A DNA stretch of 64,000 nucleotides from Branchiostoma floridae. Taxonomy: Eukaryota > Chordata > Leptocardii > Amphioxiformes > Branchiostomatidae. The stretch lies in NCBI RefSeq assembly GCF_000003815.2, contig NC_049981.1:15865859-15929858 (forward strand). Reading direction: 5' to 3'. Below the pieces are notes generated by a model, which did no database searches, was not told where the DNA came from, and saw only the letters and a program-made list of their open reading frames with translations. Positions 14,694 through 56,624 of this stretch are shown here, one piece after another (within the stretch, counting starts at the first letter, position 1; every line of letters begins with the position of its first letter). A program made the position numbers and the translations under genes.

Positions 14694-15588
14694 TAACATG
14701 CATTGGCATAATACCGGTAGTAAGACTTATACCGGTAGATTAAAAATACTGGAACTTAAAGAGATCTACACATGCAACAATAGTTATTTCTGAGCTGTGC
14801 ACACTTCAGACATCTAGGTGTCCAATACATCATTTACAAAGCATCGATAACAATGCATTCGAAGACAACAAGGCCAAAAGTTTTCAGTATCTTTTTCGGG
14901 ATAGGCAGCTTGTCGTGGGACGAACACACTGCCACATTCATTGCCAAATTTATAGATCATAATTACACATGCTCACGGCACAAGACGAACATGATTCAAC
15001 AACAATCTTGAATTTCTGTTGGTGACCTACAACCCATGTAAAAGTGTGAAGAACCGTTGCATAATAGCCCGGATCTACGACTGAATGGACAAAATTGAAC
15101 GTACGCAGCCATTTTCCCGCCATTTTTATATCTACACTAGCAGTGAAGTGTTACGTCATAGCGGTTGTAACAGACAGAAGTTAAATGAAAATTCTTGACA
15201 GTATACGTCCGTTTTCTCATGAAATTTTGTATGCTCATGCAGGTTTATGTTTTATGCATTTACTGACAGAAAAGGAAGGAACATCAGAGGATGTATAAAT
15301 GTACATAGCGGCAGTTAATTGTGCCGTGTTTCTTCCTACCGGTATTTTTTACCCCCTCCCAACCACGCGCCCGTTCGCCGTGTAATTCCGCGGCGTGTTA
15401 CAATTACAATATTACGCTTTTAGCAGGACAAGAGTGGCAGAAAAGTTACACAGAAGAAGTGGCAAGGGTAACCTATAACTTACAGCAACATGTAACTGGA
15501 GAAAATGATGCGTTGACAATTTGTCAAATCAGTATGGCTAGAGAAATCGTCGTAAACGTACCGGTATTATATATGATAATAGATGTTA
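14694..15588 (-). mobile_element. ~890-bp TIR element, copy 2 (inverted)
   Basis: Reverse-complement copy of the element at 7816-8703, very similar along its whole length apart from substitutions and short indels. For example, the outer end reads ATATATAATACCGG here against ATAATACCGG in copy 1. The two copies form an inverted repeat with a ~6-kb loop. The open frame at 15321-15707 crosses the element edge and is not a gene. Confidence 0.75.
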
Positions 15589-18500
15589 CGCATGTATTGT
15601 ACCTTTCTACACAAGCTATTTCCAGATATAGGCTTTTGCCATCTCAGACTAGTTGTACACTTGTGTTTCCTATCTTCAAAGCTCTTTTCTCGTATGATTT
15701 CTTATAATCTTGCAGTTAATTTTATGTCTGACTAACATAATGAACAATTGTCGTGACAACTTCAAACAGCCATTATTACTGCTTGAAATTGAATGAAAAC
15801 ATCTAGTAAATGTATTTCACATAGAAAGTATGCAATCACGTAAACTATCTGTTTTTTGACCACTTGCTTCAAAGTATGATCATGCAGTGACTGACCACTA
15901 AAAATTGCCCTGACTCCACTCGGCCCCCCTCACGCTCACTGCACGATTAGCAACTCAGCACTGACCAGCCAATTTGTAGCCAGACATTTCAGACAAAAAT
16001 GAGTGATTAGCTGTCAATTTGTGCAGCCGTCTCAACCTCAGTCGTTAGCCCAACTGACCTAGTTGTTTTCTTCTCAACCCTGATTGGCTAATGAGATTTC
16101 TTCCGTTCTCTTTGTGAGTATATTCTGATATTCAATTCAATACATTTCTTATAAAAGAGCTTTACTGTAGAAAAGAGCTCTATGTTCAATGTCATACCAT
16201 GTTTAACATTATGACATATCAAATAATCTAAAAGTTTACTACATCCGTGAGATTTTATTTTATTTTCATCATTTTAATTGCTTTTATTCAGAGACAAGTA
16301 GAAGAATGCCGTGGACTGTTGGAAAGATTAGAAAGTGTAAGAAAACTTTAACATGTCATCATCCATGTATTAAAGATATGTAAAACTGCAACAGGTTTAC
16401 AAAATTATCTTTCTGAGTTAAATGTCTTGAAAGATAATTTGCATGTAATATGTCTTGAAATATAGTTTTTAAACTTGCACAATGACTAATTCAGATGTTT
16501 CTAGGTCAGACTATAAGGCAGTCAGTTTATTACATTTACATAGTGTTTCTGTCATTAATCATTCCTTATGCTATTTCATGCTACGGTAGCTTGACCACCA
16601 TTTTGACCATAATAAAACTGACCACCACAAAATTGACCAAACCATAAATTTCATTTACTTCTTATCAAAGACTAGCGGTAGATGCAAAAAAATTTCATCA
16701 CGTCAATTGTTACACTGTCATAATCACTTTTGAATTTTTTTGTGTATTTACGTATGTTTGTAAATTATGTTTATTAATATTGCACACACATTTAAATAAT
16801 ATATTCTGGATATAATATTGTACTGATGGTCCCTTCCCCTGTTTAATCATCAAAGAGGAAAGATTGAATTGATTAGAATGTCCTCAGGTCTTTTATACAC
16901 AGTGATAACCACATATGATGCACTGACCATTCATTGATATGCACATATATTATTGACACTTGAGTGATGATCAACTGGCCTTTGATATGTCCAGAGGTGT
17001 CCAGTTCTTGTTTTTTAATACATATCTGATGGAGGCTATAACAAACAGTTTGTCATGTAGGTAGTACCTTTTTAAACCTTCGCTGTTCAAACTTAACTTT
17101 AAGGTATGGTTGAAGAAGATTGTACATTTGTGTATTTGAAACTACCTTTTCTGTAGTGACTCAAAAGACTTTATTCACCTGTTTAAGGTACATCCAGTTT
17201 TTGTCAGTACCTGTCAACCACAAAGTTCTAAACCTTTTCTGACAGGTGGCAACCAGAGAAATAGCATCAAATTTGGCTCAGATTCGGCACGTCCTGCGGT
17301 GATTGTGCATCAGATGGTGTTTGGTCACTCATGAAGCCCTCCGAGAATTCCTTTCTGCTTCAAACGGTGATGAAAAATTGATGAAATCTTGCGTCTTCAT
17401 GCTTCATATCACCAACTAAGCCAGAAGTGATAGAGTTTATAGTCTTGGGTGAAGTATCACATGCAATTTGGTTGATACCGTTTGCACTTCTTCACAATTT
17501 GAGAGTAGCTCTTTTTAGAAATTTTACGAACAAACTTGGGTATGGAGTATAACACTATACCCAAACTTTGCAACTGTGGCTGTTTTAGGGCTAGGGTTAG
17601 GTATGTTTTTCACCGTAACAGCTTAAAACATATCTTAAAATGTTGTCTTTTATGTTGGCATATTTGATAAAGGATAGTGATTTTCTGCTTGTCATACATC
17701 ATTGCGTACAAGGCAAATACTTACCCAAAAAATTTGGATTTTATAGCCTGGGTCTACATGTAATCATCTTTGTCACAAGCCACTGACCGCTAGTGGACAC
17801 AGTGGACAGTCCAGCTCATGGTAGGCTGACCACTGGGTACTCTTTTATGCAGATGTGTCTTTTGTGTTTTAGATTACTTGTCATAGGCTAAAAGATAACA
17901 GCTTGTTTAAATTCTACCAATTACCTTACTATCATACTTCAATAAGATAATTACACAATAAAAGGGATTTTTTTGTTTTTAAAACAAACGGGTTAGAATA
18001 AAAATGCTTTTGGTATAGAATAAAAATGCAGGATAGCAAAATTTGTTCAAAATTATACTTATTATACATTGTAATGTAAACCTGTGTAGTTGAACTGTTA
18101 TTTTAAAGTGTGGTAAGTTTTTTGTGTGCTAAATTTGTGGGTATATACACAGAGAATGCTGAGTGATTCTGACAGGTCAAGATGACAGTCAATGATTAAT
18201 AATCAATGGATTGGCTGTAATCATTGTAATAAAATTAGTTACCAATTTGTCCAAAATTAATTGATGTAAAAAGTCCAATGATACAATAACTTTTATATGT
18301 TTGGAAGCATGTTCAGACTTGCTGTTCTATAAAATCGTCATGCAACTATTGTTAACATATTAGTTACTTTTCCAAAAAAGCAAAAGCATTGAAGTTAAAG
18401 TTTTAAGGCACCAGAAAACTTCCTTTCTTCCATGGAAACTTTAAACATCTCTTGAAAGATCTTTTAAAAATGCACCTTTCACCCTTATTACAACTCTATT

Positions 18501-21686: not shown

Positions 21687-22047
21687 CTATAGGTTTGTTC
21701 TTATCTTTGGTGGTATTCTATACGGAAATGGCCCCACTTTTTCATATTTGTCGATATCCCATGAGCCCTGTGGGTCGCACTTTTTCGTTGTCAGCTTCAG
21801 GACACCTTTAGTATGGAGGTTTCTGAGGACCAAGTGTTCGGCGTCCATTTTGTGGACCTTACTGTAGGTCTGGTTGACATCCTTTGGTTCGTAGTAGTGG
21901 TAGGGGATGGGTTGCCCCTCCTCATCTTCATGGAAGGGGTAGAAGCCGTAGAGGTGGATCTCATCACAGATGGCCTGTGCCACAGTGTACATGAACACAC
22001 CGGAGGTCAGGCGGTAGGCCTTGAACTGGTGTTTCACTCTCCAGTAC
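21687..22047 (-). CDS. ST8SIA: ST8SIA last exon with motifs S, III and VS
   Basis: A 361-bp terminal exon after the acceptor TTTCACCACAG. It encodes motif S, the acceptor- and donor-binding region with LTSGVFMYT and CDEIHLYGF, then YHYYE, then HKMDAE with the catalytic His of motif VS, and a KLTTKKC C-terminus plus a tail rich in Pro and Lys. The stop is at 21687. Confidence 0.95.
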
Positions 22048-25000
22048 CTGTGGTGAAACAGAGAGGTAAAAGAAAGGGATATGTAAGGACTGTGGTTAGA
22101 GCTAAAATTTAAAGCTTCTGGGCTTTAATTCCTAGTAGGCCCCAATGTTGTGCCCTTTGGAAAGGCACTTTACACCTATTTCCTCACTCAGCCCAGATGG
22201 AAAGAAGTACCTATTGCTTGGAATAGGACATCCTCTTGGATGGGATGTAAAGCTGTGTGTGACTGTGAGGTGAGCCACACATCGAGCATGTTTAAGAAAC
22301 CCACCACACTTAACAAAAAGACTAGGGGTCCATCCAAGTGTGTCAGATGGTTTGGATATCATTCACTGTCTTTCATTTGACAAGAACCAGTTCTCAGATT
22401 TATTTTTCAATTGTTTAACTCCATTGGATGGCATTTCAGCACCAGGTAGTCCAGATTTTTTGCAATAACACTAGACTTAAACTTGTTCATTCAGTTGAGA
22501 TCTAAGGAAGATCTGTAAATCCCAGTTTTAGGAAGAAATACAGTTTTCTCTGTGCTTATAAAATCTGATATCCCCAAAATATAGCACTTCTAATATTAAC
22601 ATGAGACAGTACAGTTTAACTTAACAAAATAAGTTTAAGCAAATGGAGGCTGCAGTTCATAACACTATTGATAGGGGGCGCTGAAGAACAGTAGCAACAT
22701 CCTGAACAATGTTAATGTCCCACCCATTGATCCATTTCAGGGCGTTGCCCAGCCATGCCAACTTGACGTTGGTCTTGTTGCGGTTCTCCCAGAAGAAGTC
22801 GGTGAGGATGCGTACAGGGATGGCGTTGGTGTGATACGTGAAGACAGGCATCCAGAAGATGGCATCCCCCAGCGCCTGAACAAACTTCAGGAACTTCTGC
22901 CTCTCCTTTTCTGTGGCAAGGTACTTGAACCTACAACAGCGGGAGAGGTGGGGTAGATAATCATTGAAAATGTTCTGCAGAAAGTGGCAATGTGGAATAA
23001 AGTCATAAAAAATTAAATACATTGATATAGCCAAAATTCTTAGCAAAATCATGCATTTTTTTTCTTTGATACATATTTCAACAAACACAGATACAATGTT
23101 GTGACTGGTTGGCACAATCATTCAATTACATTTTGTGAACACTTTATCCAGGCGACATGCAGAATAGTGAACACTTCATTTTATCTACTTGACAGTTAAA
23201 AAACATTGTTTTCGGTTTGCACGGAGACATAAAATTCCAACATTGTAATCTTCTGTGAAGAACTTTTAGATAAATGTGTTTCTATCTTATTGTTGGAAAG
23301 TAAATAGGCAAGATATCAATGATGTCCAGAAGTGACAACTACTGTACATTGCTTTGTACAAACATCCAAGATGTATCCTGTACAAATGAATATGTGTAGC
23401 TAACATATTTTAGGTCTGGGCTCCAACCTTCAATTAATAAAAACAAACAACAATTTGAAAATGCAATACAATGTCCTTTCACATAGATAAGGGCCCACAT
23501 GATTGAATTGCAGCAATTCATAGGGAAAGTTTTAATTTCTATCCATGTAATTTATGACCACATTTTACATAGTTGTCTTCCTGACTTTAGCATAATGCAT
23601 ACTAAGCAGTCCTACTGAATTTAGCATTGTTAGGACACTCCCATGCTAAAACAAGTGAAATTTAAACTCACCTGTACTGGAGGATGCTGCCATTGAAGGT
23701 AGTAAAGTTAGTCTTGGTGCCCACATCTTTCTCATACCCTTGTGTTGGTGCAAAGTTGCAGCGGAACACAAAGTCTGCCTTGTTGATTTCATTCCCACAG
23801 CCGCTGTCCAACAGGATGCCACTGTTCCCGATCACAGCGCATTTCCGATGGTGCATGCCTTGGAGCGGTGACCTCTCCGGTAAGAGGTCATACAGCATCG
23901 GGGAGATGGAGAAGACGTAGTTCTCCGGAGACTGGTCAAAGTGCATGATGGTACCCGGTTGGACATCCTTTTTTGTCAGACTTATTCTTTTCACCACATT
24001 GAAGTACTTCCGAAGACCTTTCCTGTTAGGAGAAGATGATTTTCATTTGATTAATGCCATGAACAGGTAATAGAAATAAGTAAAGATTTTCCACAAAATG
24101 TTGTTTTTAACGTTCAGCCTACTAAAGTAGCCATTAATAGACTGCATGGATACAGTACCATTTAATGTTAGTTCAACTATATCTGTGATTTTGAGGAATA
24201 ATCTACATGTTGGTTTTAAAACTTAGGGATATCAAAATGATGGATGGTCATTTCAAACTGCAATGTTTTGAAAATATTGCAGTTTTGAACCAGCATCCAT
24301 CATTTTGATATCCTTGTTTTTGAAAACAACGAAATGGAAATAATTTTTTTTCTGTTGAACCACAAAATAGACAACTTTTTTTCTCTTCCAAGTTAGCTAA
24401 ATGTCCTCACAATTCTGCATGACATTGTGATTCATTTAGTTGTAGGTATTGTATGTATATTTCGTATGCAAAACATCTTTTTCTCAAGAAGATGCAAATA
24501 AATATCATATTGAAAACAGTAAAAGTCATCTTTTCTATAACTAAATATGAATTAAGTCATACCAATTGAATTCCATGGTTGTTGCATGTTTGCAAGAAAA
24601 TGATGGAGGGGTATATAGGCAAAATAAAAATAAAACAAAACAGGAATTCTGTCAGGTGATCTAAATGCAGCCACAGGGCCCGCCAAGCCCAGACTACTTA
24701 ACATTTCAAACAATGGATGTTGCATATTGATTGCATGAATGAATGGAAAAACTTCAACAGCTACGATCTATAGTTCCTGACAGCTGCTGGGAGAGTTTGA
24801 GAGTCATGGCTCATTATCCAGAATGATTCAAGTGTTGTTGTTCTGGACTATAGGGTGGCAAAATCAAGGAATGAAATAATGTAAATTGATATAATTGTGG
24901 TCCAAGCTATTCTTAGACTAGTTCTGAATAACTTAAAAACTATTTACAAGGAAGGACATGTATCTGTATTTTGGTTGCATAAGAAAGAATAATGATTGAA

Positions 25001-36879: not shown

Positions 36880-37037
36880 TTATCAACCTTGCCATTCGAA
36901 AGGATAGTAATTAGATCGCTATCCTGTTATTAACATTGATGGAAATGTAGCTTTCTGTCCAACAGACTTCCATCACTCACTAGATAAAAAACGGCGCCAC
37001 TCACAAAACAGCAACACAGAATTATAGCTACAACATA

Positions 37038-37043
37038 TTTATT
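37038..37043 (-). promoter_or_regulatory. polyadenylation signal of left WSC gene
   Basis: AATAAA on the minus strand, about 330 bp past the stop. It is conserved at the mirror position 47731-47736 of the right arm, which supports its use. Confidence 0.5.
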
Positions 37044-37370
37044 ATCGATCCATACATCACAGTATCTAAATGCAATCAAATCCATACTGATACGTCTGGC
37101 TTGAAACCCCGATTGAACAAGTCACAGAACACATAGGGATCGCATGCAAAATGTTTTTGCAGTTGTAGTTGTAGATTCTAGAGAGCGACATTGAATTGTA
37201 TTCAGTACATTTTTGTATCAAAACACACCTTCGATTGATAAGACAACAAAATTATCTCAGAGTAGAAATGGAAGTCAAAGAAAGACCTTTTCTGCTCTAA
37301 TCTTAAGACAAGTTTTAAGATGCTGCACCCACAACCCTTGCCTCTTTCATATTACACCATCTATCTGGCG

Positions 37371-39926
37371 TCAGTTGTCCACGTTGGTACCCATCATCCT
37401 CTTCGCGTTGTTCCGTAAGGCTGCCATCATGCTCTTCAACGTCAGCATTCGCTTTACTGCAGAAGGGCATAGAAATTTGTGATGTCAAACACAACATTAT
37501 ATAAAACTAGAAATGTTGATATACAATCTTCAAAATACAGATTCTGAAGTGACATTCATCTTTTACGTTAGTCAGTATACGTGAAACCTGTTTTTCATCC
37601 AGTTGCAGGGATGGCAGAAATTCCTCTTTAGATATTTGCTGCCATGGGCTCTTTCAACATAACGATACAAAGACAACGAGGCAACATGTGTATGTGGAAA
37701 GAAATATACAAAACTCATATATTTTATAACCAACATGGCAGACGTTTGATAGCGTCATGGTCGTGACGTACCTTGTCCGGTGCTCCACACGGTGACTGTC
37801 TGTTCGTTACCTCCACATTTTGATTTCAGATCTCCTGTGCAGCTGACGTCACACTGTGAGTCGGACACTAGGCTGAGGGTTTGCAGGTCCGCTGCCGTCA
37901 AACAGCTACAGAACTTGCCTTCGCCTGTCGCTGTTGGAGACAACATGACGAATATGATGAGAAAAATGAATACGCCGTACTTGTACTATCTTACGGCTTT
38001 AAATTAATACAGGGCCAGTCATGTAATTGATATTTATCCTAAAACTTACAGTATCTTATTAAATTCATTTTAGTCATACATCATATGGCTGATATTTTCT
38101 TGCCAACACAAGTAGTTTATTTGAACTGAAGTTCAAATCAAAGGCTTACACTAGAATCACAACAAGTTCAATAAGAATGAAAAGGCGCGTACCTGAGTAA
38201 GTCTTGCCCTGGGCAGCACAGTGTTGGACACAGTCTGTGTTGGTCATGTCCGGAGACGCCTGGTCGGCGGTGAGCGTGTCCTCACTTCCCGTGTGCGTGT
38301 AGCAACCTTTGTAGCTCTGGACGGAGGTCGTCAGCGTACGTTTTGCTGCAGCGCGAGGGGGATGAAAAGTTGTTATGTCATACACGGCATTATATAAAAA
38401 AGGAGAAGTTATTCTTCGAAATTGGGGAGGGGGATAAATGAAATTTACAATGTCATACATTAAGTTATATAAAACTAGAAATATCGATAAAAATCTTCAA
38501 AATACAGATTCTGAAGTGACATTCATCGTTCTTCAGGAGGTAGTACATTTGTATATGGTTTTCATCCAGTTGTAGAGATGACTGTCGCACTAATTGCAGT
38601 CCTTTGAACGTGACGGTCTAAGACAATGATGCAACATGTTCATGTGGGGAGAAAGATAAATAAAATATTTCATAACCAGACGTTTAATGACGCCATGGTC
38701 GTAACCTACCTTGTCCGGTGCTCCACACGGTGACTATCTGTTCGTTACCTCCACATTTTGATTTCAGATCTCCTGTGCAGCTGACGTCACACCGTGAGTT
38801 AGGCACTTGGCTGAGGATTTGCAGGTCTGCTGCCGTCAAACAGCTACAGAACTTGCCTTCGCCTGTCGCTGTTGGATAGACAACATAACGAATATGATTA
38901 GTAAAGTGCATACGCCGTGCTTGTACTAACTATCTGAACTTACGGTTATGCTGCAGGGCCAACTCAAGCTCATAAATTTAAATTCAAACTGAAAGTTACA
39001 GTATATTGTTTAAATCTATTGAGGGTCCGTAGTTAAAACACGAACATATAGTTGATATCTTCTTACCAATACAAGTAAAAGGAGTGTGCCTATCAACTGA
39101 AATTTTAAACATTCATTCCAGAAACGTATGTAATAATATTGTGCATGATAAAAACTCATTCAGTACATTTAGTATTTGTATCGCATTTGAATAGCATTAC
39201 AATAAAGAGTTTTCCAAAACCCAATAGAAGTCAAAAGGCGCGTACCTGAGTAAGTCTTGCCCTGGGCCGCACAGTGTTGGACACAGTCTGTGTTGGTCAT
39301 GTCCGGAGACGCCTGGTCGGCGGTGAGCGTGTCCTCACTTCCCGTGTACGTGTAGCAACCTTGGTAGCTCTGGGCGGAGCCTGATCCTGTGAACAAGGGC
39401 GGAAGATTGAATCATAATAGTGAGAATGTCAGAATGGTAAACTTCTAATATCACACTGTGCTTTGCCATGTTTTGTTATCTACGAAAAACGATGTCATAT
39501 TAAAAGTGGTCAACGACGATGGAAGAAGAAATACATTGCTACAGGGTTTTGTCAAACTTTTGCTCCAACTATAAGAGCAGTTGAAAAAGCCAACAAAACT
39601 CAATCTCCAAACGTTTACTGTCGAGAATACAACTTTCTTAACTCCACAAACCCCACTCATTGCAGAAAGATACTTCAGGAAACAAACCCATATTGTACTT
39701 CGTATAAGTTCTTGTTGTTTCAGTTTGCAATCAGCCCTCGGGCAAGAATACTCTTACAACATTCATGAACACTTGCAATTCATTTGACGCCCGACATGAA
39801 CTAAAACTGGTATCAATAAACACCGCAGCTTTATACTGATATCAGTTTGATAATATATTACAACAAGAAATCGGAACACAACTTACCGATAGCGAGCAGG
39901 AGGACGAATGTTGAAATTGCCACCAT
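37371..39926 (-). CDS. secreted protein with two WSC domains (left copy)
   Basis: Six exons: 39887-39926, 39246-39386, 38710-38868, 38193-38345, 37772-37930 and 37371-37456, giving 245 residues. All five introns are phase 1. The protein starts MVAISTFVLLLAIG (signal peptide), followed by two WSC domains (about residues 18-110 and 120-220) and a basic tail of about 28 residues ending GTNVDN. Each domain has YxGCY, MTNTDCVQHC, GKFCSC, CDVSC and KCGGN, the eight-cysteine WSC pattern, and each is split by an intron after GKTYS. WSC domains are putative carbohydrate-binding modules, so a secreted glycan binder is inferred. The exon 4 acceptor is CTGCAG with a poor pyrimidine tract. Confidence 0.88.
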
Positions 39927-40002
39927 CTTGAACAGGACCAACTGACGAGACTTGTCACCGACTCTTGTCAAGCAAGAAGTGACATAGCAGTTTTTGTCGT
40001 CT

Positions 40003-40010
40003 CTTTTAAA
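40003..40010 (-). promoter_or_regulatory. TATA-like element of left WSC gene
   Basis: TTTAAAAG on the minus strand, about 77 bp upstream of the ATG. It lies in a block (GGGTTTAAAAGAGACGAC) identical at 44474-44491 in the other arm. Its position fits a core promoter with a short 5' UTR. Confidence 0.45.
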
Positions 40011-40987
40011 CCCATCTGGTAAGAATTGTCTGACCACCGAATCGGACTTACCTTGCTGTCTACTAGTTGTCTGAATCAGGAATTGATATTTTTTTGTTAT
40101 GATGTAAATCAGAATGAAGGGGTTGTCTGTGAAAAGTACAATTATGAGAGACAGTGGATAACATTGCTTGATTGTTTTTCAAAAGGAACGGATTATTGTC
40201 ATGTCTGGTCAGAACTTTAATGTTGTCTGTGCAGTAGCAATGGATTTGCTGCTACATTTCTATACATGTATATGGCCGAGAGAGATACAATGTATTTATA
40301 TACACATTCAAAAAATGCATATATAACAGAGGTAGAACTTGTAGCAACGCAAAATACGTTTTTCCGTAAACTATTAGTAGAGTGGAATTCATTGCCCCCA
40401 GGTTCATGTACGATGTCGGCATGGTCATCCGGTAGCTTTGAGCAAGGAGATTTTATCTGATAAAAGCTCCTTGCTTTGAGCAACACTTAGTTAGATATGC
40501 GATGGTAGGTAGGACGCGTCGTTCTATAGACAACAACTGCCATCATATTGTATGGAGTTTTTCTATTTAGTGGTTTTCTCCCAGTAAGATCTGTTACTCG
40601 AAAGTTTTGACATCATTTGTCGTCACCCAGAGTCACAACGAGGGCTAAGTCGATGTACGTTGCTCAAATTCTCCCTATTGTGAAGCACAAGTAATTCCGG
40701 GGCGCTTTGTCTGAAATGACTAAGATATCCATTCCTTCACAACTTGCTCAGACGTAAACCATATTTCATCTGTTTCATTGAATCATTGTACATGTATTGG
40801 ACTAATTTTACTTGATTTTATCTTTTCTTGCTTCGGGCTATTTACAACTCGAATCTGAATTTTACTTGTAAAGAAGATACAACGTTACATTATAAACACA
40901 CATCAATTCCCAGATAGACAAAAATTGTTGATGTTACGTTTATGTTGTGATATGTCAGGATATGATTGGCATGATAATGGTATGTGC

Positions 40988-41043
40988 AGCAGCGTGCTGG
41001 GCCCATAACCCAGAGGTCGGTGGATCGAAACCACCCGCTGCTA
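40988..41043 (+). pseudogene. initiator tRNA-Met pseudogene, D-arm deleted
   Basis: Identical to the intact initiator tRNA at 42282-42353 except for a 16-bp deletion that removes the whole D arm. The break lies between two AGCGT repeats, suggesting slippage or short-repeat recombination. The anticodon arm (GGGCCCATAACCC), T arm and acceptor stem ends remain. It cannot fold as a cloverleaf. Confidence 0.93.
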
Positions 41044-41469
41044 GAAATTTTTTTTCTGCAATTACATGTATTTCCCCTATTTTCATAATGTCTATTACCA
41101 AGAAAAAATCACGTACTCCGACTTGATTTGTGGATAACACCCAATAGTATATATATTTTTGTATGTACATACGCATCTGAAATCTTACATATAGAGGTGA
41201 TCACGAAAGTTGCAAGGGAAATTGAACACATAGAACATGCAGACAATTGGTCATAGAATAAACGAAAATTTTATTAGCTTAATTTGAATAAATCATTATT
41301 TTAATGAATGAAGACTTTTATTGTACACTTTTGCCACACTTGGCTATGCACACGTCACTGTAAAACGTGTTGAAAGTTGATACATGAACAAAATATATAA
41401 AAATAATAATAAATAGTGCATAGACGAGTGCTTATAGTGTAAATAGTGTATGGTAAATAGTGTAAATTG

Positions 41470-42006
41470 TGCTTCACTAGAAGGTGCATTTGAGTCATGT
41501 CAAACAACTTATTCCTCGTTGTCAAGACTTTCGAGCAACGGGTATTCCTGGGAGTAAACCTCTAAAGGGGGGAAAGGCACCTCTGTTACTCCAGTATTCA
41601 AGAGAGGTAGGCAATGTAGGCAACAATTTTGTCTATCTGAGTAAAGGGCACTAAAACCAGATAGAAACCACTACAGGAAGATCCCAAGGTTTTAGATGAT
41701 CCAGCATGGCGCTGGTTAGGATGTGCCCCAGCACTTTGCTACAAACGCTTGTCAACGACACCGGACACTTAGTTGCCTGCATGCATCGTACTGCTCATCT
41801 GTCTTGAACACCGGAGTAACAAGGGCAGTTTTCACACAGATAGTAGAGTCCCAGTGTTGACCGACGACGGATTCGTCCTATGTGTTACCAGACGACGGAC
41901 ATGATAATGTACAGATGTGCTTTTAGAGGTTTACTCCCAGGAATATCTGTTACTCGAAAGTCTTGACAACGAGGGCTAACTTGTTTGACATATCAAATGC
42001 ACCTTC
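41470..42006 (-). mobile_element. reverse-transcriptase remnant, inverted pair member 1
   Basis: Reverse complement of about 42765-43290. On the minus strand it encodes pieces of a non-LTR reverse transcriptase (ALVTPVFKTDEQYDA), but the frame is broken after that point. It flanks the central tRNA-bearing spacer. Confidence 0.7.
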
Positions 42007-42764
42007 TATCCATTCCTTCACAACTTGCTCAGACGTAAACCATGTTTCACATCTGTTTCATTGGATCATTGTATTGGAACAGTTTTTACTTGATTTTATC
42101 TTTTCTTGCTTCGGGCTATTAACAGCTCGAATATGAATTTTACTTGTAAAGAAAATACAGCGTTTCATTATAAACACACATCGATTCCCAGATAGACAAA
42201 AATTGTTGATGTTACGTTTATGTTGTGATGATGTTATGCATATGACGTGTCGCGATATAATAGGCATGATATTGTACGTGCAGCAGCGTGGCGCAGCGGA
42301 AGCGTGCTGGGCCCATAACCCAGAGGTCGGTGGATCGAAACCACCCGCTGCTAGAAACTTTTTTCTTCAATTATTTTCCCTATTTTCATAATACATGTAT
42401 CTATTACCAAGAAAAATCTAACGTAGTCCTTCATGATTCTGACTCGGACATACGATATATACATATGATCGCACGCATAAGAAAAGATGTCTGAACTCTT
42501 ATGATATACTTATACAGGTGATCACGAAAGTCGCAAAGAAAATTGAACACACAGAACATGCAGATCACTGGCCATAAATGAATGAATTACTTTGATTCAC
42601 TTAATTTGAATAAATGAAGACTTTTATTGTGCACTTTTGCCACACTTTGCTATGCACACGTCACAGTAAAACATGAAATAGTTTTACGTCTGAGCAAGTT
42701 GTGAAGGAATGGATGTATAAGTCATTTCAAACAAAGCGCCACGGAATGATTTGTGCTTCACTAG
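42007..42764. other. palindrome spacer with a third tRNA repeat unit
   Basis: Direct repeat of the unit at about 40733-41365: CATTCCTTCACAACTTGCTC at the start, the tRNA in the middle, GATCACGAAAGTCGCAA and TTTTGCCACACTT...CACACGTCAC at the end. It also ends with a short inverted piece (42680-42750) matching 40684-40760. It sits near the centre of symmetry. Confidence 0.8.
42282..42353 (+). tRNA. tRNA-iMet: initiator tRNA-Met (CAT)
   Basis: 72 nt. The acceptor stem AGCAGCG/CGCTGCT begins with the A1:U72 pair of eukaryotic initiators. The A box is TGGCGCAGCGG, and the anticodon loop CCATAAC (anticodon CAT) sits on the GGG/CCC stem typical of initiators. The T loop is ATCGAAA in place of TTCGAAN. 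The discriminator base is A. Poly-T runs (ACTTTTTTC) follow, as a pol III stop. It is likely functional and lies at the centre of the palindrome. Confidence 0.97.
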
Positions 42765-43290
42765 AAGGTGCATTTGAGTCATGTCAAACAAGTTAGCCCT
42801 CGTTGTCAAGACTTTCGAGTAACAGATATTCCTGGGAGTAAACCTCTAAAAGCACATCTGTACATTATCATGTCCGTCGTCTGGTAACACATAGGACGAA
42901 TTCGTCGTCGGTCAACACTGGGACTCTACCATCTGTGTGAAAACTGCCCTTGTTACTCCGGTGTTCAAGACAGATGAGCAGTACGATGCAGTGCAGGCAA
43001 CTAAGTGTCCGGTGTCGTTGACAAGCGTTTGTAGCAAAGAGCTGGGGCACATCCTAACCAGCGCCATGCTGGATCATCTAAAACACCTTGGGATCTTCCT
43101 GTAGTGGTTTCTATCTGGTTTTAGTGCCCTTTACTCAGATAGACAAAATTGTTGCCTACATTGTGCCGCTCACCTCTCTTGAATACTGGAGTAACAGAGG
43201 TGCCTGTCTTCCTTTTAGAGGTTTACTCCCAGGAATACCCGTTGCTCGAAAGTCTTGACAACGAGGGCTAAGTTGTTTGACAATCATATC
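42765..43290 (+). mobile_element. reverse-transcriptase remnant, inverted pair member 2
   Basis: Plus-strand frame from about 42931 reads KTALVTPVFKTDEQYDA, then CPVSLTSVCSKELGHIL and SAMLDHLKHLGIF before a stop. This is the (V/L)TPVFKKG...RPVSLTS...K(V/L)LE region of the non-LTR reverse-transcriptase fingers. Only this fragment (about 60 codons) is left, so it is a fossil. It is the mirror image of 41470-42006. Confidence 0.75.
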
Positions 43291-43554
43291 CTGACACATA
43301 TCAACATCATTTATTCAAATTCAGTGAATCAAAGTTTCTTTAATGACACAGTTATCTGCATGTTCTATGTGTTCAATTTTCCTTGCAACTTTCGTGATCA
43401 CCTATATATGTAAGATTTCAGATGCGTATGTACATACAAAAATGTATATACTTTTGGGTGTTATCCACAAATCAAGTCGGAGTACGTGATTTTTTCTTGG
43501 TAATAGACATTATGAAAATGGGGGAAATACATGTAATTGCAGAAAAAAAGTTTA

Positions 43555-43626
43555 TAGCAGCGGGTGGTTTCGATCCACCGACCTCTGGGTTATGGGCCCA
43601 GCACGCTTCCGCTGCGCCACGCTGCT
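43555..43626 (-). tRNA. tRNA-iMet: initiator tRNA-Met (CAT), right-arm copy
   Basis: The minus strand is identical over 72 nt to the tRNA at 42282-42353, with the same A1:U72, GGG/CCC anticodon stem and ATCGAAA loop. On the minus strand it is followed by ATAAACTTTTTTTCTGC, a pol III terminator-type T run. It is the intact mirror partner of the damaged copy at 40988-41043. Confidence 0.97.
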
Positions 43627-44476
43627 GCACATACATTATCATGCCAATCATATCCTGACACATATCGACATCAAAACATAAACGTAACATCAACAATTTT
43701 TGTCTATCTGGGAATCGATGTGTTTTTATAATGAAACGCTTTTTTTTCTTTACGAGTAAAATTCAGATTCGAGCTGTAAATAGCCGGAAGCAAGAAAAGA
43801 TAAAATCAAGTAAAATTAGTGCAATACATGTACAATGATCCAATGAAACAGAGGAAATATGGTTTACGTCTGAGCAAGTTGTGAAGGAATGGATATCTTA
43901 GTCATTTCAGACAAAGCGCCCCGGAATTACTTGTGCTTCACAATAGGGAGAATTTGAGCAACGTACATCGACTTAGCCCTCGTTGTGACTCTGGGTGACG
44001 ACAAATGATGTCAAAACTTTCGAGTAACAGATCTTACTGGGAGAAAACCACTAAATAGAAAAACTACATACAATATGATGGCAGTAGTTGTCTATAGAAC
44101 GACGTGTCCTACCTACCATCGTTTATCTATAACTAAGTGTTGCTCAAAGCTACCTGATGACCATGCTGACAGTGTACATGTACCTGGGGGCAATCAATCT
44201 CTCGGCCATATATAGAAATGTAGCAGTAATTCCATTGCTACTGCACAGACAACATTAAATTTAAGTTCTGACCAGACACGACAATAATCCGTTCCCTTTG
44301 AAAAACAATCAAGCAATGTTATCCACTGTCCCTCATACTTGTACTTTTCACAGACAACGCCTTCATTTTGATTTACATTACAACAAAAATCATCAATTCC
44401 TGATTCAGACTACTTACCCACTATCAGACAGCAAAGTGAGTCCGATTCTGTGGACAGACAATTCTTACCACATGGG

Positions 44477-44484
44477 TTTAAAAG
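44477..44484 (+). promoter_or_regulatory. TATA-like element of right WSC gene
   Basis: TTTAAAAG about 87 bp upstream of the ATG, in a block identical to the left arm's upstream region. Confidence 0.45.
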
Positions 44485-44570
44485 AGACGACAAAAACTGT
44501 CAGTTCTTGCTTGACAAGAGTCGGTGACAAGTCTCGTCAGTTGGTCCTGTTCAAGATTTCAACAATTTCA

Positions 44571-46147
44571 ATGGCAATTTCAACATTCGTCCTCCTGCTC
44601 GCTATCGGTAAGTTGTGTTCCGGTTTCTTGTAGTAATATCTTATCAAACTGATATCGGTCTAGAGCTGCGGTGGTTATCAATACCAGCTTTAGTTTGTAT
44701 ATGTCGGGCGTCGAATGAATTGCAAGTTAAGTGTATAACGTATGATGCATGAATGTTGTAAGAGAGTTCTTGCCCGAGGGCTGATTGCAACTGAAACAGT
44801 GTATAGAAAAAGGATACAGAAGGTGCAAGATAACAATGGTGACAGGTGTAAAAGAAACTATTCCAACAAGAACTGCTACGAAATTCAGTATGGGTTTGTT
44901 TCCTGAAGTATCCTGAAGACTCTTTTTTAGTCTGGGTACCATCCGGAAAGAAGTTCTCTCCGGCGTTCATTATATACTATTTACAGTCGCTTCTAGCTCT
45001 GACGTTCATTATACACTATATACAGTCTATTCTCTGCTGGAAAGCAGAAGCGAACATAGGAGCGAACTACTATCCGGATGGTGCCCAGGCTAAATCTTTC
45101 TGCAATGAGTGGACAAAGTTGTCAGTTAACGTTTGGAGATTGTTATGAGTTTTGGTGGCACTTTGAACAGCTCTTATCCTCATACTAGTAGTTACAGAAA
45201 AAGTTTCACACAAAAAACTGTAGCAATGTATTTCATCTTCCATATCGTCGTTGGCCGTTTTAATATGACATCGACAACGACAACAAAACAAAACAGCACA
45301 GTGTGCTATTAGAAGTAAATCATTCTGACATGTCGCACGATTATGATTCAATCTCCTGCCCTTGTTCACAGGATCAGGCTCCGCCCAGAGCTACCAAGGT
45401 TGCTACACGTACACGGGAAGTGAGGACACGCTCACCGCCGACCAGGCGTCTCCGGACATGACCAACACAGACTGTGTCCAACACTGTGCGGCCCAGGGCA
45501 AGACTTACTCGGGTACGCGCCTTTTGACTTCTATTGGGTTTTGGGAAACTCTTTATCATACGATGATTCTCTACCACACGAATAGAATATGCACTGAAAT
45601 CTTATGTATGATGTAATGTAACGTTATATAATATGTGTGTGTACGTTTCAGGAATGAGGAAGCATTTGATTTAAATTTGGGTCTATATACATACTACTTG
45701 TATTGGTGAGAAAATATAATATGCTCTATATGTTCGTGTTATAACTACCCTGAATAGATTTATGCAAGATACTTTTAGGATAAAACTTATCAAAGAGCTT
45801 GAGTTGGCCCTGTAGCGAAGCCGTAAGTACAGATAGTTAGTACAAACACTGCGTTTGCACTTTACTAATCATATTCGTCATGTTGTCTCTCCAACAGCGA
45901 CAGGCGAAGGCAAGTTCTGTAGCTGTTTGACGGCAGCGGACCTGCAAATCCTCAGCCAAGTGCCTAACTCACGGTGTGACGTCAGCTGCACAGGAGATCT
46001 GAAATCAAAATGTGGAGGTAACGAACAGACAGTCACCGTGTGGAGCACCAGACAAGGTACGTTACGGATGTACAACGAATCTCTATTTTTCTCGTCACAT
46101 TATTAAACATGCCTGCCATGAAAAATGGAGGCATTACTCTGTGTCTG

Positions 46148-46215
<68 letters not shown>

Positions 46216-47381
46216 CCACATGCTGCAAATGTCTACGTATAAAGACAAAACTACTATATATAATCTGTACATTGGATGAAAAACGGATATAGCCTCCGGA
46301 CTTATGTCAAAGATCACTGTCACTTAGCAACACATACTTCTGCATTTTGAAGAATAACTTTTCTTGTTTTATATAATGCCATGCATGACATAACAACTTT
46401 CCATCCATCCCCGGCCCATTCAGCAGCAAAACGTACGCTGACGACCTCCGCCCAGAGCTACCAAGGTTGCTACACGTACACGGGAAGTGAGGACACGCTC
46501 ACCGCCGACCAGGCGTCTCCGGACATGACCAACACAGACTGTGTCCAACACTGTGCTGCCCAGGGCAAGACTTACTCAGGTACGCGCCTTTTTATTCCCA
46601 TTGACCATTTTTATGCGATTCTAGATTATACAAGCCTTTGGTTTGAACTTCGGTTTTGATAAACTACTTGTGTTGGTAAGAAAATATCAGCCATCTGATG
46701 TATGACTCAAAATAAATTTAACAAGATACTGTAACTTTTAGGACAGAACTGGCCCTGTAGCTACGCCGTAAGATAGTTAATACAAGCACGGCATATTCAC
46801 TTTACTAATCATATTCGTCATGTTTCTCCAACAGCGACAGGCGAAGGCAAGTTCTGTAGCTGTTTGACGGCAGCGGACCTGCAAAACCTCAGCCTAGTGT
46901 CCGACTCACAGTGTGACGTCAGCTGCACGGGGGATCTGAAATCAAAATGTGGAGGTAACGAAGAGACAGTCACCGTGTGGAGCACCGGACAAGGTACGTC
47001 ACGGCCATGGCGTCACATCAAACGTCCGCCATGTTGATTATCAAATATGTGATTTTGCTATATATCTGTCCACATTAAGATGTTGCCTCATTGTCTTTAT
47101 CATTTGTCTTTAATGCTTTCAAAGGAATGCAAATAGTGTTATAGTCAACTCTGCAACTAAACGAAAACCGGATATTACTTCCTGAATAGCGTGAACGATG
47201 AATGTCACTTCAGAAACTGTATTGATTGAAGATCAATATTTCTAGTATAATAGAACGTTATGTACGAAATCACAAATTTCCACCCTCCCTTTCTGCAGTA
47301 AAGCGTAGCTTGACGTTGAAGAGGATAGTGGCAGCCTTACTGGACAACGCGAAGAGGATGGGTACCAACGTGGACAACTGA
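44571..47381 (+). CDS. secreted protein with two WSC domains (right copy)
   Basis: Six exons: 44571-44607, 45372-45512, 45898-46056, 46427-46579, 46835-46993 and 47299-47381, giving 243 residues, with all introns phase 1. It has a signal peptide MAISTFVLLLAIG, two eight-cysteine WSC domains and a basic tail ending GTNVDN. It is nearly identical to the left copy in the domains (differences such as STRQG for STGQG), and the tail lacks one Met codon. The left copy's start ATG-GTG is replaced here by an inserted TTTCAACA-type duplication, so the next ATG is used. An upstream in-frame ATG at 44472 overlaps the TATA-like block and is judged non-coding. Exon 2 ends TCGG|GTACGC, a changed donor context (TCAG in the left copy) that still keeps GT. 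Confidence 0.87.
46150..46213. repeat. (TG)n microsatellite
   Basis: About 32 uninterrupted TG units in the intron after the first WSC domain of the right copy. The mirror intron in the left arm has no such run. Confidence 0.97.
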
Positions 47382-47730
47382 CGCCAGATAGATGGAGTAA
47401 TATGGAAGAGGCAAAGGTTGTGCGTGTAGCATTTTAAAACTTGCCTTAAGATTTAAACAGGAAAGCTCTTTCTTTGACTTCCATTTCTATAATGTTAACA
47501 TTTCGTCGTCTCATTAATCGAAGTTGTGCTTTGATGAAGGTTAAACATCCAGGCTCATGATACAAAAATGTATATATTGTATATTAAATACAATTCAATC
47601 TCTAGGGTACAATTACAACTGCAAAACATTTTGCATGTAATCGTTATGTGACTTGTTCAACCGGGTCAGATGTACTGCAATTGGTTTGATTGATTGATAT
47701 TCAAATACATACTGTGACATGTACACGGAT

Positions 47731-47736
47731 AATAAA
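47731..47736 (+). promoter_or_regulatory. polyadenylation signal of right WSC gene
   Basis: AATAAA 350 bp past the stop, mirrored by 37038-37043 in the left arm. Confidence 0.5.
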
Positions 47737-47880
47737 GATGTTGTAGTAAAGATACATAATTCTATGTTGTTGTTTTGTGAGTGGTATCGTTTTCGATGTA
47801 GTGAGTGATGGAAGTCTGTTAACAATGGGGTAGAGAACTACTTTTCCATCAATGATGTTAACAGGATAACAGGATAATGA

Positions 47881-49371
47881 TCTAATATCACCACATATAC
47901 CCCGTAGTCGTACTCTTTACCAACAACGTGTCGTCTGTACTTTGTAGCAATTATGCTTTCACGTGCTTGCAACGCATGAGGCAGTACGTACAAAGACAGC
48001 CCTTGTTCAGTTTCCTGTCAAACCCTTTATGTAGGATATGGACTTCTTTCTCTACGAATGGTAATTTTGTCGACTCTTACACAATCGTCCAAATGTCTGT
48101 AATACATAGTCATTTCAAGGTTCGTAGAAAAACTTCAATATGGCGTTTTTGATGGACAAATGTCTGATAGTACCGGTTTCTTGCTTCGACAGTTGTAAAA
48201 GTAAGGCCAGATGGAGCTGATTGATACATCATGACGTGTTTAATGACGCGTTTGTGTTATCATTGTATAGACCGTGAATGTTTGCTCATGAGCTAAAAGT
48301 TCCGTCTGAAAAGGTGGCAGTGAAAAGTTTTAAGGTGAACATCCGGGCACTTCATGCCCACGTCTCTGCTAATAAACCAATGGGCGAGCTTCTCCGTGAT
48401 GCAGCCGCGTACAGCACTCATAATGCAATCCCCTGTCTCGTCACTTAGTCATTGTTTTCATCCTCAAATTGGCATAAGGAAATTTCAGCCAAGATATCAA
48501 AGAATCTACAGCCTCAATTTATTCAACACGAATTAGGTGTAGAATAATACATGTATTATTGTTCAAGTTTAGCCACCGAACTCTATCCATCGAACATCAA
48601 AATCATATGAAAAATGTAGAATAGGCAGTTGAATGTATTTCTTAATGTAGTATCGTCGGTTGCGATTCTTGTCGAATGACGTGCACATTCCTTTCAATGG
48701 ACATTGTGTGCGATGCTTTCCCGTCCATATATGTTTGAAATATATAGTCTGTAAATATCAACACGCACTGCAATCAACAATGTAATTTTCTGTCTGCTTT
48801 GTCAGGTATTTCTACTTATCTCCACAACCGGTCCACTGATCACAAATAGCCTTCAGCAGGATCACTGGATATTAATCAGTCTACCGCTGTAAACTACCGA
48901 GAAGTTAACCACAGCTTCATGACTATCTCCCGAGCGTTTTCTTGTCGTTATAACTTGTGTCCTGCTCGTCAACGTTATTATATCACGCCAACGTTATCAT
49001 TTTTTTCGGATCACACACAAAAACTACTCGTCCAAATGTATGTCTTACATAGACAATGAAAATTCGTAGAAAAACTATTGAATATTCTGATAAGGCACCT
49101 ATACTTCCAGGCTTATTTAGGAAGCGTTTCATTCTGCGGAACCGGTGGAGACGGGAACGTCAGGACTGACTCTCATACCGCTCACCGACAACATCGTCCT
49201 GTTTTTCTTGCTGACAGCATCAAAGGTGAAACGTTTCCTATCGTCTTTACTTTACAGTCAAGAAATCATTCGCAATTTTTTCTCTTTCAAAGAACTTGCA
49301 GCCAAGTCGGGACACACGGAGGAATCTTTAATTTGATATTCCCGCACAAATATTGCTGACATATTGGGAAA
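47881..49371. other. intergenic region, nothing recognised
   Basis: Between the right edge of the palindrome and the LRR gene. Open frames are short and without motifs. Confidence 0.45.
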
Positions 49372-50367
49372 ATGCAGACCGTTATGTTGTCAGTATATGA
49401 AGGACTTCGGGTAAAGTCACAAAAACGAAGCAAACACAGTCGTCTGTGGCTCACTGCCGCTCTTTGTTTGGGTATTGCCTCTATGAGAGGACTCGCTTTC
49501 CCACAAGGCTGCACAATTTCAAAGGAAACGGACAAGCCGTTTCCATGGGTGAGGTTGAACTGTCGTAACTTAGAGTTAACAACATTTCCTCAAAGCGCAC
49601 CGGCTGATGTGAACCGTCTGGAACTTTCCTCCAACTGTATCAAAAACTTAACCGATGTTCCCGTATTGAAAAACCTATCTGCACTGGACTTAAAGTTTAA
49701 CCAAATTGGGACCGTTGACTGGGAAACTCTCCACAACCTTCCAAATCTGGAATACCTGTATTTGTCCTACAACCGAATCACACACGTCAGTTTAGATGTT
49801 GTCGTGAAGCAGTTGCCCAAATTGTTCCACGTTGGTCTGTCAAAAAACATGCTAGCGTCTTTCTCCTTACAAGAGCTGGGGTATCCATTCATAGGGAGCA
49901 CACCAATATTCGGCAACCCCCTCCACTGTGACTGTACAATGCTGTGGTTAATGGTCAAACATGAATGTCTGGTAGAACCGGCTGAATCACAGTTACGTTC
50001 AGCGGCCGACAGTTCTGGATCGGTTACCGCCCGGTGTGAAGTGTGTGATGCCTGCTTTCTGTCCTTCTATCCTGACCGTACTTTTAAATGCGCCAGCCCT
50101 GACTATCTAAAAGGAAAGTCCTTGTCAGAAGTCTCACGAAATCTGATGGGATGTGGAATGGAAAAAACACCAACAGGCCTAGGGTTCTCACCAGATGTCC
50201 CACACAAGACGACGCGTACGCTATTCCAGCGCACAAACGGCTCAGACAAAGAACCCTTGGTAGTTTCTTCGCCACCTGGCGACCTGTCATTGAATTCCGG
50301 ATGCACGCTCGATGTGGATGTGAGTGTGTACCGATATGCGTTTATCTCAAGCAGTCCCAACGATTAA
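49372..50367 (+). CDS. secreted leucine-rich-repeat protein, single exon
   Basis: 331 residues. A basic N-terminal stretch precedes a hydrophobic signal segment (about residues 25-43: LWLTAALCLGIASMRGLAF). An LRRNT-like part with C47 and C64 leads to about four LRRs (residues 80-180, LxxLxLxxNxI pattern: RLELSSNCI, ALDLKFNQI, YLYLSYNRI, HVGLSKNML). An LRRCT cap starts NPLHCDCTMLW and has further cysteines near 199, 222-228, 240 and 261. The remaining 70 residues are Ser/Thr/Pro-rich and lack a membrane segment. The ATG at 49372 has an A at -3 (GAAAATGC); Met5 is an alternative. GTGAGT near 50320 could be a donor to a further exon, so the tail may be incomplete. The particular LRR family was not recognised; extracellular binding is inferred. 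Confidence 0.8.
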   Translation: MQTVMLSVYEGLRVKSQKRSKHSRLWLTAALCLGIASMRGLAFPQGCTISKETDKPFPWVRLNCRNLELTTFPQSAPADVNRLELSSNCIKNLTDVPVLKNLSALDLKFNQIGTVDWETLHNLPNLEYLYLSYNRITHVSLDVVVKQLPKLFHVGLSKNMLASFSLQELGYPFIGSTPIFGNPLHCDCTMLWLMVKHECLVEPAESQLRSAADSSGSVTARCEVCDACFLSFYPDRTFKCASPDYLKGKSLSEVSRNLMGCGMEKTPTGLGFSPDVPHKTTRTLFQRTNGSDKEPLVVSSPPGDLSLNSGCTLDVDVSVYRYAFISSSPND

Positions 50368-50643: not shown

Positions 50644-50796
50644 AAGACTTTATATCCGTGCACAAAATAAAGCGCTTACAAACAAGCTTTCAATCAGTAC
50701 TCTGATCCTTCTGGCTATTTCAACTTGAGACGGATCAGAGGACTGATCGAAAGCTTGTTGGTAAGAGCTTTATTTTGTGCACGGATATCAAGTCTT
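50644..50796. repeat. ~150-bp inverted repeat abutting the assembly gap
   Basis: AAGACTTTATATCCGTGCAC (50644-50663) pairs with GTGCACGGATATCAAGTCTT (50777-50796). The match continues through AAAATAAAGC, AACAAGCTTTC and CTCTGATCC with few mismatches, around a short centre (GGCTATTTCAACTTGAGAC). The left arm carries AATAAA (50666-50671), a possible poly(A) signal of the LRR gene. The right arm ends exactly at the gap. Confidence 0.85.
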
Positions 50797-50896
50797 NNNN
50801 NNNNNNNNNNNNNNNNNNNNNNNNNNNNNNNNNNNNNNNNNNNNNNNNNNNNNNNNNNNNNNNNNNNNNNNNNNNNNNNNNNNNNNNNNNNNNNNN
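50797..50896. other. assembly gap (100 N)
   Basis: One hundred ambiguous bases, a nominal-size scaffold gap. It begins right after the inverted repeat. Confidence 1.
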
Positions 50897-53785: not shown

Positions 53786-55395
53786 TTGGATGAAAACCCC
53801 TCCCCCTCTAAAGAATTTCTTGAATCTTATGAAAATAAACAAAAAGAACTTGAGGAGTTGAATCGTGAAAAAGCAGAACAATCAACTTTTCTAAAAAGAT
53901 GTCGTTGGATGGAGACTGGAGAAAAGTGTTCAAAACATTTCTTGAAACTAGTTCATAGGAACTATGTGAGAAAGAACATTTTAAAACTTCAAACTACAGA
54001 TATGCGTACCTTAACGGATCCCACATATATTCTACAAGCTGAAATAGAATACTTCTCTTCACTATATTCTTTTCATAATCATCCCATTCCACTTAAAGAA
54101 GAAACCTGTCAATCTTTTTTCCCGAAAGACTGCCAAAATCGGCTTTCAAATGAAGAAAGACAGCAGTGCGAGGGATTAATATCAGAAATAGAACTAAAAA
54201 ATGCGATCAAATCTTTTAAGAAAGAGAAATCCCCAGGACTTGATGGCATTCCGGTGGAATTTTATGAAGTATTTTTTGATGAAGTTAAAGAATCGATGTT
54301 ACAAAGCTTTAATTACGCCTATACATACGGAGAAATGTCCTCCACCCAGAAAGAAGGTTTAATCCCACTCCTTCTAAAAAAGATGCAAACGGGAAAGATA
54401 AAGAGCCATCTCTTTTATGTAACTGGCGTCCGCTGACCCTTTTGTCTTGTGACGTCCGAATTCTTTCTAAATGCCTTGCTTTAAGAGTTCGAAAAGTACT
54501 GGACAAACTAATTCATAATGACCAAAACGGGTTTATACAAGGCAGATATATAGGTGATGGAATCCGTAGAATTTTAGAAATAATGGAGATGTATGAGAAA
54601 GAAGAAAAACCTGGGCTCATTTTTGTAACTGACTACGAAAAAGCTTTCGACAGTATCAGGTGGGACTTTATCATTGAAGCATTGAAATTCTTTAACTTCG
54701 GAACGTTATTTATCAAATGGGTGAATGTAATGTATAGTAACATATCGAGCAGAATAATCAATTTCGGCCATCTGTCAGAACCTTTCAAACCCAAGAGAGG
54801 GGTGAGGCAGGGATGCCCCCTTTCCCCGCACTTATTCATTATTGCCGTTGATGAGTTATTAGCAATTAGGATCAGAGGGAACACACAGATAAGGGGGTTG
54901 GTAACGCAGGGGATAGAAACAAAGTTATCCCAATATGCGGACGATACTGATTTCACTCTAGAACCCACGTCATCTTCCCTATCAGCTTTGACGAACGATT
55001 TAGACTTGTTTTCTACGATATCTGGCCTCATTCCTAATTATGGTAAATGCATGATTGTTAGAATAGGATCTCTCAAAGACACAGACTTTCAGCTACCATG
55101 CCCATATCCGGTAGAATGGACAGATGGACCTTTTAACATGCTAGGAGTCCAAGTTCCATTTAATATGGATGAAATTGTACCTACCAATTTTGACCTTTGC
55201 CTCTCAAAACTGGATTCTGTATTACAACCCTGGAGGGGAAAGTTGTTAACAGTATACGGCAAAGTTACGATTGTGAATAGTTTAGTAGTCTCACTGTTTG
55301 CACATCTTTTTCTGACTCTCCCATCCCCACCTCAAGTATTTTTCCAATTGTATGAAAAGAAAATATTCAATTTTATTTGGAACAACGGTCCGTAA
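53786..55395 (+). pseudogene. LINE reverse transcriptase (frameshifted)
   Basis: Two frames, 53786-54436 and 54442-55395. The first has KSPGLDGIPVEFYEVFF. The second has DYEKAFDSIRWDF, GVRQGCPLSPHLFIIAVDEL and the catalytic QYADDTDF, followed by NDLDLFSTISGLIPNYGKC. The break near 54390-54440 separates KEGLIPLLLKK from the NWRPLTLLSCD segment. All catalytic aspartates are present but not in one frame. Confidence 0.92.
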
Positions 55396-55581
55396 AGAGT
55401 AAAACGAAAAGTTCTGTACAATACCTATCAATGTGGTGGATTGAAACTTATCAATTTATATGTATTTAATGCTAGTTTGAAGGCTTCTTGGATTCCAAAA
55501 CTTTAGTGTAATAGAGATTGGTTCTGTGCTAAGTTACTATCAAATACACATGTTATATTTTGTAAAGGGTTATTCCCTTTT

Positions 55582-56624
55582 ATGCAACTAGGCAATGATG
55601 ACAGGATAATTAATAGGATATTACAAGAGCAATTTCCAAATACTAGCCTATTTTTTCGAGATGCCATCTCAGCATGGTTAGCCTTCCAACATAATCCTCC
55701 GGATTTCGATTCGAATTCTTGGCAACAGCAAATGTTATGGTGCAATTCAATTTTTCAAATTGAAAGGAAACCAATTCTATGGCAGAACTTTGTTGAGAGC
55801 GGCATCATATTTGTTGAAGACTTGCTAGACACAAATGGGATACCCATGTCATATCACATATTAATTAAGACATATGGGAAGCTCTGCTCTGAATTTACAT
55901 ACAATGGGTTGATTTCTGTATTAGCGAGAGTGTGTCCGAGGCAAATTGGTAATAATTTCAATCACTTGCAAGTGTGCAGACCGCTCTTAAAAACTATGAA
56001 TGGTGTAAAGGAACAAAGATCAATAAGCAAATGTATGACTTCTTTATGGAAAGCAAAAGCCTTAAGATGAATCCAGAAAACACCATGTCTTACTGGGAAG
56101 ATGATTTTAACATTGCCCTCCCATGGAGACAAATATTTCAGTTACCCTACAAACTTACAATAGATTCCGCCAGCAGGATCTTCCAATTTAAACTCTTGCA
56201 TAGGTTTCTAGCTACAAACAGAATGTTGTATATTTGGAACATCAAAAGCAGTTCGAAATGTTCTCTATGCGGGGAGGATGACGAAACAGCGAAACATTTA
56301 TTTTGGAATTGTCACATTGTATTTTCATTTTGGAAAAAGGTTCAAATTTGGTATAATTCCATAACAGGACACTACCTAGATATAAACGACCCATTGAATG
56401 TATTACTCGGCGATTTATCAAGTGAAACACAAGTAATTGCTAATGTTATAATTCTATTGGGCAAAATATATAGCTATAAAAACCGGGAGACATCGAATCT
56501 ATCCATCCACATGTTTATTGCCTTCGTTAAATATGTACATAAAATGGAAAAAAAATTTGCAACAGCTAAAAACAAAATAAGTAAACATAACAAAAAGTGG
56601 GAACCCTTATACCAGTTTCTGTAA
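55582..56624 (+). pseudogene. LINE C-terminal domain with CCHC knuckle
   Basis: Two overlapping frames (55582-56070, 55974-56624). The second carries CSLCGEDDETAKHLFWNC, the C-x2-C-x8-H-x4-C knuckle found after the reverse transcriptase in Tx1/L1 and related LINEs. It ends at 56624, about 115 bp before the A tail. Confidence 0.88.

Follow-up and report, generated by a model that had tools for sequence, protein, structure and literature searches.

A mirror-image pair of WSC-domain genes with alike exons and diverged introns in Branchiostoma floridae

Mirror-image gene pairs under conversion are already known. Palindromic orientation is seen in the Amy and Hsp70 pairs of Drosophila, and the concerted evolution of Amy is limited to the coding sequence (PMC3924832, excerpts). 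Hsp70Aa/Ab and Hsp70Ba/Bb are described there as mirror-image pairs homogenized by ectopic conversion (PMC3924832, excerpts), the process proposed here, but they encode an evolutionarily conserved protein family, whereas the WSC pair studied here has a dN/dS of ~0.5. The mammalian DDX19A/B, TUBG1/2 and BMP8A/B pairs are, as here, mosaics of concerted and divergent segments within one pair, although the conversion fragments detected in them also span introns, unlike here (PMC2720389, excerpts). The amphioxus VCBP2/5 cluster resembles the WSC locus in its many inverted repeats and its genes for chitin-binding-domain proteins; its inverted repeats are haplotype-dependent, and it concerns another family with a hyper-polymorphic exon, whereas the exons of the WSC locus are homogenized (PMC2632668, excerpts). 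The titles and abstract openings surveyed in the literature on WSC domains in amphioxus or Branchiostoma, and on palindromes or gene conversion in amphioxus, contain no such WSC locus.

This work describes two divergent WSC genes of B. floridae, in which the layer added to the known pairs is the resemblance of both domains within a gene. Compared with Amy-p and Amy-d, which are amylase genes with support from several species, the locus has exons split by diverged introns, an internal domain duplication and alike non-coding DNA near its axis. It is a clear case, apparently outside insects, of alike exons with drifting introns, and it offers a built-in comparison of inverted with direct copies. 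Dating based on the exons would make such a pair seem young.

Organization of the locus and its genes

The window, which is the whole stretch of 64,000 nucleotides analyzed, corresponds to C3:15865859-15929858 in an assembly of 513 Mb and 431 contigs. It carries two divergent six-exon WSC genes, one per arm of ~5.1 kb, around a 0.75-kb center. The left arm (36880..42008, minus strand) and the right arm (42762..47880, plus strand) are defined by their inverted matches to each other and flank a central spacer (42009..42761, unstranded), which lacks a mirror partner in both the self-comparison and the arm-to-arm alignment (mirror identity 42-43%). Five collinear inverted matches, with axes at ~42.25-42.39 kb, pair 37217-38422 with 46344-47535, 38700-39571 with 45189-46066, 39716-40268 with 44207-44798, 40473-41296 with 43306-44150, and 41498-42008 with 42762-43282. 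In 100-column steps along the arm-to-arm alignment, the inner arm (right 42769-43282) is 92-100% identical and the stretch between right 43387 and 44147 is 91-100% identical, with variable values in the gene portions. Outside ~36.9 and ~47.9 kb, the mirror identity in this alignment equals the background (38-54%).

The initial annotation had reported an 11-kb palindrome at 36880-47880 and suggested a self dot-plot of 36-48 kb. The collinear matches and the background identity beyond both ends bear out this mirror arrangement and its coordinates. The word palindrome is apt for the mirror arms but not in the strict sense, given the unmirrored center of ~0.75 kb and arm segments that are 73.7-99.3% identical (intron 3, at 49.6%, apart). 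The retention of both genes, earlier regarded as remarkable, is less so given that a spacer lies between diverged arms and that palindromic pairs have been described in Drosophila (PMC3924832, excerpts).

In the splice-site model, the right gene (plus strand) starts with exon 1 (44571..44607), which by eye encodes a signal-peptide-like start. Exons 2 (45372..45512) and 3 (45898..46056) encode the first and second half of WSC domain 1, exons 4 (46424..46579, with a tandem CAGCAG acceptor) and 5 (46835..46993) the two halves of WSC domain 2, all four with Pfam support, and exon 6 (47299..47381) encodes the tail and the stop, with an AATAAA ~350 bases downstream. Exons 1 to 6 of the left gene (minus strand) lie at 39887..39926, 39246..39386, 38710..38868, 38193..38345, 37772..37930 and 37371..37456; Pfam supports exons 2, 3 and 5, and exon 6 again holds the tail and the stop, with an AATAAA downstream. 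Left exon 4 was first modeled to 38348, where it is not preceded by an AG acceptor. A usable AG lies 3 bases inward, at the site that corresponds to the tandem CAGCAG of the right gene, and once the acceptor is shifted there, the introns of both genes are GT/AG. Both reading frames are intact (244 and 246 residues in the splice-site model) with two PF01822 stretches each, in agreement with the earlier description of two complete six-exon WSC genes as mirror images.

At matching places, both arms carry a TTTAAAAG box upstream and an AATAAA downstream; that the box is a promoter element is a guess. The promoters had been described as shared. The 4.6 kb between the two ATGs and the separate upstream region of each arm rule out a single bidirectional promoter for both genes; the promoters are duplicated instead.

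Each protein consists of the signal-peptide-like start (by eye), a pair of WSC domains and a short tail, and this small protein is probably secreted. With two PF01822 stretches each, the two proteins score 81.0 and 81.7 bits against a curated cutoff of 27.8 (E 7.5e-23 and 4.4e-23), and Pfam found no domains other than WSC in either protein. The WSC domain has eight cysteines, and eight were counted by eye on the translations in each of the four domains. Among solved sequences, Kremen-1 matches the right protein best (E 0.00058). Kremen carries further domains besides WSC, whereas only WSC was found here. The WSC family is associated with carbohydrate binding, which suggests a putative carbohydrate-binding role for the pair; among the matches listed, the literature on WSC function is fungal only.

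Divergence of exons and introns between the arms

Exons 2-5 carry 1, 3, 3 and 4 differences between the arms (11/615 bases), exon 1 differs at one of 37 bases and exon 6 at nine of 83. Besides indels, the arms differ at 83/493 aligned bases in intron 1, 83/365 in intron 2, 30/243 in intron 4 and 75/300 in intron 5 (79 in a separate alignment), which sums to 271/1401 (~19%). Intron 3 was excluded from this sum, as part of it is not alignable and its matching stretches are short (49.6% identity); it is partly unrelated between the arms, and its right copy holds a (TG)32 repeat. The 3' flank differs at 105 of 467 bases. The near-identical exons and indel-bearing introns noticed in the initial annotation are therefore real, and the comparison of exon with intron identity and of dN with dS that it recommended gives 11/615 against 271/1401 and a ratio of ~0.5.

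This ratio applies to exons 2-5, where synonymous differences occur at 4/139.7 sites (dS 0.029) and nonsynonymous differences at 7/475.3 sites (dN 0.015); 4/101 four-fold sites differ. In exon 6, dS and dN are both ~0.12, a ratio of ~1. The silent sites are homogeneous: their divergence is ~seven times below that of the introns (4/140 versus 271/1401; Fisher p 2.4e-8, with sites treated as independent).

Just outside the exons, differences amount to 2/34 on the 5' side and 0/30 on the 3' side for bases 1-10, and to 8/40 and 6/30 for bases 11-20 (exon 3 excluded from the 3' counts). They reach 7/79 and 7/55 for bases 21-40, and 23/156 and 32/116 for bases 41-80. Identity overruns some exon edges, and past exon 2 the arms share 32 unchanged bases. 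Non-coding DNA near the axis differs at 12/511 bases in the inner arm, 40/819 in the next arm segment and 45/846 in the 1 kb upstream. At 2-5% difference, it is as alike as the exons or slightly less, which goes against an exon-only pattern, as the exons are not the sole alike parts.

Gene conversion and alternative explanations

Only two alike copies were implied at first. Within each gene, however, exons 2-3 and 4-5 are duplicates, resulting in four alike WSC copies at the locus. Domain 1 and domain 2 are separated by a dS of 0.05-0.085 (three to five synonymous changes per ~62 sites), and the arms by 0.033, with two changes in each domain comparison. Between the two modules, corresponding introns share 66.8-78.1% identity (four comparisons: R2/R4, L2/L4, L3/L5 and R5/L3), and the partly unrelated right intron 3 reaches 57.6 and 60.9%. 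A match between the non-partners left exon 2 and right exon 4 is identical at 146 of 147 bases and takes in 13 intronic bases.

A 301-base DNA probe containing exon 3 has four matches in the assembly, all within the locus. The protein query against its own genome has 21 matches (48/48 candidates scored), of which nine are in the locus. The closest outside copies are two exons at C3:3.404-3.408 Mb that look like a single-WSC gene and are ~50-56% identical (54 and 56% in the search, 50.8 and 53.8% in alignments), and the other ten are 26-43% identical. Across the genome, at least 74 matches to PF01822 occur (150/263 candidates scored), and none of the 74 listed lies in this locus. With the nearest outside copy at ~50-56% identity, there is no support for an extensive set of close WSC copies as donors to the exons.

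The best explanation, which we hold to be probable, is an inverted duplication combined with non-allelic gene conversion of the WSC exons, both between arms and between domains. We infer conversion as the process and the following order of duplications. A two-exon WSC module would have been duplicated to form an ancestral gene whose small secreted product had two WSC domains, and this gene copied in inverted orientation into a divergent pair around a repeat cluster of tRNA-Met. From then on, divergence would have built up in the introns and 3' regions, whereas the WSC exons were presumably overwritten from arm to arm and from domain to domain. In the gene bodies, conversion would now stop near the exon edges because the diverged, indel-bearing introns have ceased to offer homology. 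The likeness of the near-axis non-coding DNA could stem from the same process or reflect younger DNA; more intense exchange there, or an inner repeat of more recent origin, may account for its high identity.

Several observations bear on this account. The 32 unchanged bases past exon 2 weakly support conversion. The likeness of the non-coding DNA near the axis counts against it. So do six of the 16 variable sites of the domain alignment, which distinguish the two domains in each arm, with a seventh that nearly does so; six of these seven fall at nucleotides 179-203. Since such sites persist in both arms, the two domains seem to retain some identity of their own. The GC3 of the exons (0.63-0.65) exceeds that of two further frames in the window (0.39 and 0.49) but is close to a third (0.61) and lower than in exon 6 (0.75), and so offers no clear indication of GC-biased conversion.

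Selection alone, meaning strong constraint on the WSC exons that acts on the protein as well as on silent sites through codon use and splicing signals, would need no conversion, and most identity steps do lie at or near exon edges, as expected from selection and thus to the detriment of conversion. The position of these steps also fits homology-limited conversion. Selection alone would also need silent sites that evolve ~seven times slower than introns, and it leaves aside the resemblance between the non-partners left exon 2 and right exon 4, which equals that of true partners. The dN/dS of ~0.5 in exons 2-5 and ~1 in exon 6 does not indicate strong protein constraint; with silent sites so far below the introns, purifying selection on the protein is insufficient by itself, and we regard selection alone as unlikely. 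Where the initial annotation offered selection or arm-to-arm conversion, the silent and intron counts thus speak for the latter, and protein selection alone falls short.

There is a slim chance that a single recent episode replaced the exon-bearing segments without continuing exchange. The equal, low silent distance in both arm-to-arm domain comparisons would suit such a transfer, but four separate exons among diverged introns need several events, and the homogeneity between domains is at another level. An assembly artifact, in which one arm is the inverted other haplotype or a fold-back read, as the initial annotation had feared, appears very unlikely and the least probable reading, because the introns differ at ~19% of bases, too much for a fold-back at near 100% identity, and part of intron 3 is unrelated; moreover, the flanks past the arms are unmirrored, identity varies strongly along the arms, all four exon-3 probe matches fall in the locus and no N occurs inside it, even though a self-inverted stretch of ~150 bases (50644-50796) on the same scaffold abuts the sole gap of the window (100 N, 50797-50896) and itself looks like a fold-back sequencing or assembly artifact.

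The tRNA-Met cluster at the axis and other features of the window

The tRNA-Met genes around the axis are absent from the initial annotation. ARAGORN and Rfam (RF00005) both call a tRNA-Met (CAT) in the center (42282..42353, plus strand) and another in the right arm (43555..43626, minus strand). Alignment places the left-arm partner of the latter at 40988..41043 (plus strand); its 5' part is shorter by 16 bases, and neither ARAGORN nor Rfam calls it. A tRNA-Met module thus occurs in three copies (40726-41366, 42007-42672 and 43307-43895), two with an intact tRNA and one broken. The central copy makes up most of the spacer and is in direct orientation relative to 40726-41366. The left tRNA has stayed broken despite an intact partner to copy from, which counts against conversion.

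In a more specific version of the conversion account, exons would be exchanged in exon-sized tracts among the four WSC copies, inverted and direct, and the tRNA-Met cluster at the axis would be a fragile site from which the inverted duplication arose and which continues to stimulate exchange. We consider this version unlikely; if true, the elevated identity around the axis would record exchange promoted by tRNA-Met. The inner arm (41.5-42.0 and 42.76-43.28 kb) gave the impression by eye of being reverse-transcriptase-like, a reading that was rejected; a stop-free piece of 39 residues had no Pfam match.

Elsewhere in the window, open frames at 54313-56621 match reverse transcriptase (PF00078) and zf-RVT (PF13966) and represent a retrotransposon. 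A 0.9-kb inverted repeat with arms ~6 kb apart (7815-8703 and 14694-15589, 97.4% identical) is possibly a mobile element. Two open frames at 21690-24042 (minus strand) match sialyltransferase family 29 (PF00777). A leucine-rich-repeat open frame of 335 residues (49360-50364) lies just before the gap, and an open frame with a TLC domain (PF03798; 51408-51806, minus strand) just past it. Finally, a tandem array at 1288-1630 comprises 9.3 copies of a 37-base unit.
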